From: Thermococcus sp. 2319x1
GTDB lineage: Archaea > Methanobacteriota_B > Thermococci > Thermococcales > Thermococcaceae
Length of the DNA stretch: 64,000 bases
Reading direction: 5' to 3'
NCBI RefSeq assembly: GCF_001484685.1
Contig: NZ_CP012200.1
Span: 1,358,321 to 1,422,320, forward strand
Positions 11,612-12,751 of this stretch are shown piece after piece. Each line of letters opens with the position of its first letter. The first letter of the stretch is position 1. The position numbers and the translations under genes were made by a program. The notes under the pieces were generated by a model. The model had not been told where the DNA came from, did no database searches, and worked only from the letters and a program-made list of their open reading frames with translations.

Positions 11612-12751
11612 ATGGAGACCGATCTGCTTACACCTAAAGAAAGATACAGTGGAGTAGTTTTTATTGGAGTTAGAAAAAACGGCGAGGTAGAGTTCATAAA
11701 AGTCTATGCAGAAAATGAGGAACTAGCCAAAGATATCCTGGAGAGATTTCTATACGAAAAGGGAATCCACCCCGCAGATTTCGTTGTGGTGGATAAGGGG
11801 TATGAGGATGTTGAAGGGAAAGAGATAATAAGCACGCGAACCGAAAGCGAGCTTTCTTCTTTTCTTGGCCGTCTTGGGTTAAGGCTTCTCTCAAACGGGG
11901 TTCTCTATCTGCAAGGGAAAAAAGAGATATACCAGATAACCTCCCTCAGCAAAGATCTTTTAAGGGAGATAAAATCCAAAGAAGACTTAAAAGAAGAACC
12001 TGTTAGAGTTGAGCTCAAAAGCCTAAACCTCCCGCCGAGATTTATCGAAAGGCTCAAAGCTCTGGAGCTCATGGAAGATACACTGATAATAAACCACGCG
12101 GAGCTTCCCATTCCTGAGGTTTTGAAAGAAGCTATCAAGGGAGCCGTTAAAATCCCAGAAGTCCTCGAACTTGGCTCGCTGAGACTTCGGCTTTTTAATA
12201 GCGAGCTCCACGAAGTAATAAAGAGAGGAAAAGAGCTCCTAATAAAACCCCCGATAGTGGTTTGGGACAGTTACGTTGATTCTCTGGAAGATTTTGAAGT
12301 TAAAGAGAGAGGAGAGGGTTATGACGCTCCTCTTTTCTTAAAAGCCCATAGGGGATTTCTAATACTCCGAGAGCCTCCCGAGAAACTTGTTGAGAAACTC
12401 ATGAGGATTAAGGAAAAAGGAAGTGCAAAGATTAAGGGCTTCAAAGTTCCCGTGGAGTTCACGCTGATAGTAGAAAGCAAAAACACAGAAAAGTATGACC
12501 TACCCGTGAAGATAAAGCTGCCATATCTAAGCCAAGAGGAATTCAAGGAACTCCTGGAGGAAAAGACCGGGGTAAAAGTGTCGGATGAAGCTGTGGAAAA
12601 AATACCCAAAGAAAAAAGAACTTTCAGAACTCTCTTAACCATCTCAAAGCTCCTCAAAAGGCTTAAAGAGAAAAAGCCCAACAAACAGTCAGAAGAACTT
12701 TTAAAGGAAACTCTTGCATTATTTCTCGGTGAAGGGAATGAGGGTTATTGA
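11612..12751 (+). CDS. Unrecognised protein with possible degenerate AAA+ region, upstream of RtcA
   Basis: A 379-residue charged cytoplasmic protein I cannot name. The N-terminal part (1-60) looks like a small alpha-beta domain. Around residues 245-290 the pattern [15 protein letters not shown]...[12 protein letters not shown] resembles the Walker B/sensor I stretch of the ComM/Mg-chelatase/Lon AAA+ group (AHxGVLFLDEL...PxxFxLVAxxN). The catalytic Asp of Walker B is replaced (LILRE) and I see no Walker A. The C-terminus is helical and Lys-rich. A TATA-like AGCTTTTAGG lies about 25 bases before the ATG, so the mRNA may be nearly leaderless. The gene overlaps rtcA by 14 bases, suggesting a shared job in RNA end processing. 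The AAA+ reading is inference. Confidence 0.6.

Follow-up and report, generated by a model that had tools for sequence, protein, structure and literature searches.

What is the protein encoded immediately upstream of the RNA 3'-terminal phosphate cyclase gene (rtcA) of Thermococcus sp. 2319x1, and does it work with the cyclase? The initial annotation of the window, as we call the whole stretch of 64,000 nucleotides analyzed here, proposed that this gene (hereafter, gene X) encodes an inactivated AAA+ protein coupled to RtcA. The reading frame is indeed present (Table 1) and the overlap with rtcA that had been reported amounts to 14 bp, because the TGA stop codon of X occupies positions 12749-12751 and the likely start codon of rtcA is the ATG at 12738. 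A GGTGA sequence (12728-12732) lies ahead of this putative start. We rejected a TTG-initiated frame at 12714 as the rtcA start, as the longer frame is only a mechanical extension. Beyond the yfcE-family gene that precedes X, a gins23-like gene and mcm are encoded on the opposite strand, running away from position 10957. No match was retrieved by an Rfam search of positions 10800-14800.

Table 1. Features of gene X and its immediate neighbors, in window coordinates.
Feature	Positions	Strand	Evidence
Gene X, pseudo-AAA+ protein, 379 aa	11612..12751	+	ORF; 94/94 Thermococcaceae; AF2 mean pLDDT 92.1; PDB 8p49
yfcE-family metallophosphoesterase, 30 bp 5' of X	11069..11581	+	TIGR00040, 3.9e-39
rtcA, RNA 3'-terminal phosphate cyclase	12738..13790	+	TIGR03399, 6.6e-127; 14 bp overlap with X
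Orphan N-terminal domain, residues 1-126, best-conserved part of X	11612..11989	+	23 invariant columns
AAA+-like region, residues 136-376, core sheet and C-terminal helical lid	12017..12739	+	VIA Z 12.2 to 4zpx
Strand beta-1 and site of lost P-loop, residues 157-170	12080..12121	+	Alignment
Segment absent from short form of 55 Thermococcus genomes, residues 174-247	12131..12352	+	Alignment; branch 100/100
FNSELH, residues 195-200, counterpart of active-family YDPDFH	12194..12211	+	Alignment
Walker B-like strand, residues 244-256, first Asp lost	12341..12379	+	hhalign vs KANGGVLLIDD
Sensor-1 strand FTLIVESKN, residues 283-291, Asn to Lys	12458..12484	+	Alignment
C-terminal lid-like helices, residues 308-372	12533..12727	+	AF2 model, hhalign

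X is a real gene under purifying selection. When 115 genomes of the phylum were searched with a single sequence, a relative was identified in all 94 Thermococcaceae, which span six genera, and in 0 of the remaining 21. The 25 loci recovered in a scan of a genome collection were all titled Thermococcus, Thermococcales, Thermococci or Thermococcaceae, and phage and plasmid collections searched with X gave no match. The gene is single-copy in its own genome (search at E up to 10). The median dN/dS, calculated only from pairs with 0.05<dS<1.5, was 0.14 in the genus of the window (14 of 45 pairs usable), 0.044 and 0.084 in two other genera with a full-length protein (2 of 36 and 14 of 21 pairs, respectively) and 0.25 for the shortened form of X described below (371 of 1485 pairs). 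Incomplete sequences make up six of the 94. Among these, X appears to be broken across reading frames in G027, within a contig of 1.8 Mb, and has an early stop in G046; X may be dispensable or these two assemblies may be wrong.

The protein has no recognized family. None of 51 X members matched a Pfam family at 0.01, X itself gave solely matches far below the cut-off in Pfam and NCBIfam (E 0.06-0.2), and PADLOC returned no match for it. Hits to a phosphoribosyltransferase and AIFM2 (E 0.015-0.9) were taken as chance. The initial annotation regarded a dead AAA+ partner of RtcA as undescribed. The protein is not wholly new, because its Pyrococcus furiosus orthologue, 44-46% identical along almost the entire protein, has already been solved, though unnamed, as PDB 8p49, "Uncharacterized Q8U0N8 protein from Pyrococcus furiosus" (released 2023-11-29), a title that assigns no function. 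The entry has six chains, a count that by itself shows no ring. Literature searches, in which subscription journals are sparsely covered, retrieved no publication naming 8P49 (2022 onward), Q8U0N8 or the guessed locus tags PF1548 and TK1617.

We modeled X with AlphaFold2 from an alignment of 51 sequences. The lower pTM of the model (0.66) and its rmsd of 13 Å to 8p49 over the whole chain suggest that the domain arrangement is uncertain. Residues ~136-376 nonetheless form an alpha-beta-alpha ASCE core with a C-terminal lid, and the non-self structural matches shown had Z scores of 10.5-12.2, mostly over this region. The Lon ATPase of T. onnurineus (4zpx) topped them, with 222 residues aligned at an rmsd of 3.6 and many other structures tied within 1 Z unit, whereas ComM (8rxd) matched at Z 10.5 and only over residues 133-305. 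The order of the elements in the model (beta-1, 157-161; Walker B strand, 249-253; hairpin, 271-280; sensor-1 strand, 284-289; lid helices, 308-372) is that of hairpin-bearing AAA+ domains. Among the structural matches were also sigma-54 activators (Z about 11-12). Bacterial RtcR is an AAA+ activator encoded beside rtcBA, and an AAA+ fold adjoining rtcA could therefore be read as an archaeal counterpart of this regulator. This is a very improbable identity for a protein that has no P-loop and in which no DNA-binding domain was recognized, given that no Pfam domain was found at 0.01 in any of the 51 members. To our knowledge, archaea also lack sigma-54.

The initial annotation had described the protein as ComM/Lon-like. 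The likeness holds for the fold and not for the closest sequence family, which profile searches placed elsewhere. An X profile matched 107 of 396 genomes, 13 of them outside the Thermococcaceae at E-values from 8e-8 to 4e-3. Relaxing the threshold to E 1 in the 13 archaeal genomes gave 20 matching places, and nine of the ten that we read encode P-loop AAA+ proteins. Aligned with these nine proteins by hhalign, X scored 90.2 (97.2%, residues 167-373). The E-values apply to single comparisons and we used shuffles as the control: the best of 50 column shuffles scored 26.2 (2.2%) and the reversed profile 19.7. Conversely, a profile built from the nine active-family proteins hit X in one genome (G090) at 6.2e-7. 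Five bacterial members also aligned with X (96.4%, profile positions 136-390). Lon (0.7%, score 22.5) and MCM (0.2%, score 17.0) were rejected as sequence ancestors; LonB gives no significant profile match to X, which is just 379 aa long and has no P-loop. The tenth of the places read (L128) encodes what looks from its sequence like a lysyl-tRNA synthetase, and we discarded it as a chance hit.

Full-length members of the active family (E <= 1e-200) occur in 16 of the 396 genomes, none of them Thermococcaceae, and one archaeal member used as a single query (L121) matched 0 of 94 Thermococcaceae genomes at 1e-10, in a search lacking an internal positive control. Bacterial relatives are found in 75 plasmid records. 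We fetched five of these, of which three are annotated (two from Burkholderia pyrrocinia), and all three loci adjoin tad/Flp pilus genes, unlike the cluster of X, where the nearest genes are yfcE, rtcA, gins23-like and mcm. X and the active family have in common the AAA+ core and lid, a D...H motif, the KA..G residues that lead into Walker B, and the strand of sensor 1. They differ in the GPPGTGKT, DD, STN and LRR motifs, all absent from X, and at the N-terminus, where the active proteins have a helix-turn-helix-like region (by eye) with no detectable kinship to the N-terminal domain of X (hhalign, 0.3%). The AAA+ core and lid of X share ancestry with the active family and are joined to an orphan N-terminal domain. 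Members of the active family itself occur both at tad loci of bacteria and in a small number of archaea (L137-L145, L192, L193 and L195). Some archaea carry two copies, one of which adjoins a possible membrane protein (by eye), and four members compared to Pfam and NCBIfam gave partial Mg-chelatase/AAA matches only.

The alignment of X sequences with the active family reveals how completely the nucleotide-handling motifs were lost. It comprises 90 rows, 33 long and 57 short, although two of the short rows (G081 and G082) are long forms of which only a fragment is available. Every one of the 90 rows has a gap opposite the GKT of GPPGTGKT, the P-loop motif of the active family, and Asn161 where this motif has its first Gly. 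No Walker A signature (GxxxxGK[ST]) was found in any of the 94 sequences, six of which are incomplete, in line with the absence of a P-loop noted initially. The segment on which that annotation was based corresponds to residues 245-291 (positions 12344-12484). It includes the Walker B-like strand (GFLILREPP), where the DD of the active family aligns with R253-E254 (hhalign). The key Asp had been described as lost, and none of the 90 rows has Asp at position 253. Position 254 is acidic in every row (E in 86, D in 4) and is, judging from the alignment, the sole catalytic-type position left in X. No row has the sensor-1 Asn, which is Lys in 62, or the Arg-Arg finger pair, although up to 11 rows have a single Arg at one of its two columns. 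By contrast, all 33 long rows and all 9 active-family rows retain the His of YDPDFH, and 32 of the 33 long rows also retain the Asp, the window having Asn. Structure prediction, structural matches and profile homology thus support the proposal of an inactivated AAA+ protein, and X is almost certainly a catalytically dead relative of these ATPases. The nucleotide-handling motifs would have been lost before the Thermococcaceae diversified.

Further loss is apparent in one Thermococcus group. In 55 genomes of genus g4, residues 126-138, 174-247 and 269-281 are missing in >80% of the rows, a reduction of ~100 residues. Three genomes of this genus (G047, G053 and G064) keep the long form. In a tree of the N-terminal domain (first 118 residues, 89 rows; G082 and four rows <260 aa left out) the short forms are set apart by a branch supported at 100/100; one row counted among them (G081) is a long form cut off at the end of its contig. 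Because the columns are few, we used only the deep split of this tree. The tree is unrooted, and we read the short form as one later loss because the core is complete in the active relatives.

The N-terminal domain evolved under tighter constraint. Its invariant columns hold across 69 rows, among which the sequence of the window is counted twice, and 28 of the 36 positions of X conserved at >=95% fall before residue 127. Its dN/dS is also lower than in the remainder of X (0.079 vs 0.179; 14 pairs in the genus of the window). Modeled alone, the domain has a pLDDT of 92.0 and a pTM of 0.86 and superposes on 8p49 with an rmsd of 1.0 Å (54% identity). A fold search returned no clear match apart from 8p49. 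The invariant columns and the concentration of conserved positions, together with the partial deletion of the AAA+ part in 55 genomes, could indicate that the N-terminal domain is an enzyme or an RNA- or ligand-binding module and the AAA+ remnant a mere spacer under weak constraint. A YajQ-like match (71 residues, rmsd 3.2) points the same way, but we distrust it because its Z of 5.9 is within the range in which the tool's scores may have little meaning. Nor is the AAA+ part free of constraint, because eight of its residues (L153, N161, L252, E254, P255, Y295, G320 and P332) are kept in at least 95% of 88 rows. We consider this alternative as a whole rather unlikely.

To evaluate the association with RtcA, we counted neighbors in the stretches around X from all 94 Thermococcaceae genomes. 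The rtcA gene, whose product is unrelated to X, is the next same-strand gene 3' of X in 89 of the 94. Nothing lies between the two genes in 36 genomes, and in 31 of these they overlap or X lies <=9 bp from the first aligned residue of RtcA. An opposite-strand gene separates them in 53 of the 89, all in genus g4 and including the long-form G047; operon coupling of X and rtcA is, therefore, not general. Three of the five stretches without rtcA stop at a contig end, and in the other two (G003 and G064) about 5 kb on the 3' side of X contained no rtcA match. The yfcE gene is almost as constant a neighbor, located 5' of X in 83 of the 94 stretches, 3' of rtcA in nine and off the stretch in two. The nine constitute genus g3 (9/9), where the order is X-rtcA-yfcE and the trio has stayed together despite rearrangement. 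This persistence through a change in order is the only evidence for joint function. The coupling to RtcA that had been proposed thus holds in part, at the level of gene order and in the overlap within the window. The intervening gene (e.g., L045:5617-6279) encodes 184-221 aa in the nine cases read, and the one tested had no Pfam match.

The same neighborhood permits another interpretation, in which X would serve replication or repair as a pseudo-AAA+ scaffold and the rtcA-yfcE cluster would simply be an inherited neighborhood. The gins23 gene is divergent and 5' of yfcE-X in 79 of the 94 stretches, and on the same strand, after yfcE, in G012; mcm follows gins, and the antisense gene that so often parts X from rtcA is compatible with this scheme. 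However, its location on the other strand in the 79 stretches places gins outside the X operon, and eight of the nine g3 stretches, which are merely about 4 kb long, have no gins match while X-rtcA-yfcE is held. Furthermore, the words "cyclase" and "AAA" do not occur in the accessible part of the text on the P. abyssi genome-maintenance network (PMC3820547). A replication or repair scaffold is, on balance, an unlikely role for X.

The loss of the ATP-handling parts in a gene that travels with an RNA-end enzyme suggests that X probably has a structural, helping role rather than that of a motor. An ATP-independent structural role is the most economical and most likely reading, and we have reasonable confidence that the role is non-enzymatic. 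Dead AAA+ subunits exist in other machines, the clamp-loader delta-prime subunit being an example. RtcA makes 2',3'-cyclic phosphates and, as we infer, YfcE might open cyclic phosphates at RNA ends, which makes these two enzymes the first partner candidates. Gene clustering is what points to X as a partner of RtcA and YfcE, an assignment that we make tentatively. As a whole, our preferred account is that X is a degenerate AAA+ protein that would work without ATP as the structural adaptor of an RNA 3'-end module with RtcA and the YfcE-type phosphodiesterase, and we give it a probability of roughly 45%. Its N-terminal domain would make a conserved contact and its AAA+ remnant could serve as a protein-protein or oligomerization platform for the products of the neighboring genes. 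Several considerations weigh against this account, among them the opposite-strand gene between X and rtcA, the two genomes without an rtcA match and the two disrupted copies of X noted above. In addition, RtcA is known far beyond the Thermococcaceae, the family to which X is confined in the genomes searched; the adjoining mcm and gins23 suggest replication as readily as RNA; and the N-terminal domain could itself be an enzyme. A more specific version, which we regard as fairly doubtful, is an ATP-free clamp in which the former AAA+ motor would hold RtcA and the YfcE phosphodiesterase as an RNA 3'-end editing complex, with the Thermococcus short form, whose AAA+ core is ~150 residues, as a later step of decay.

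RtcA of P. horikoshii is presumably PH1529, so PH1528 may be the X protein of this species. Table 1 of PMC1414084 lists PH1528 as self-interacting and marks it as unique to Pyrococcus. As a stand-alone dead lineage with nameable active relatives and two stages of decay, X provides a useful case for the transition from ATPase to scaffold. A constant, unnamed neighbor with a solved structure also makes the archaeal role of RtcA testable in the genetically tractable T. kodakarensis.

Other features of the window and its genome were noted in passing. The MCM gene (6525-10466, minus strand) encodes 1313 aa and has, by its letters, an intein-like insert in the AAA+ domain shortly past the P-loop; the MCM forms of some relatives are 684-685 aa long. 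The LonB protein of this genome is likewise long, with an open frame of 1107 aa compared to 634-645 aa in some relatives. On the 3' side of rtcA (13838-14330, plus strand) lies what appears by eye to be a small antitoxin/PIN-toxin pair, broken by interruptions of its frames, and two adjoining 223-aa reading frames farther on (15804-17137, minus strand) have the look of tandem paralogues.
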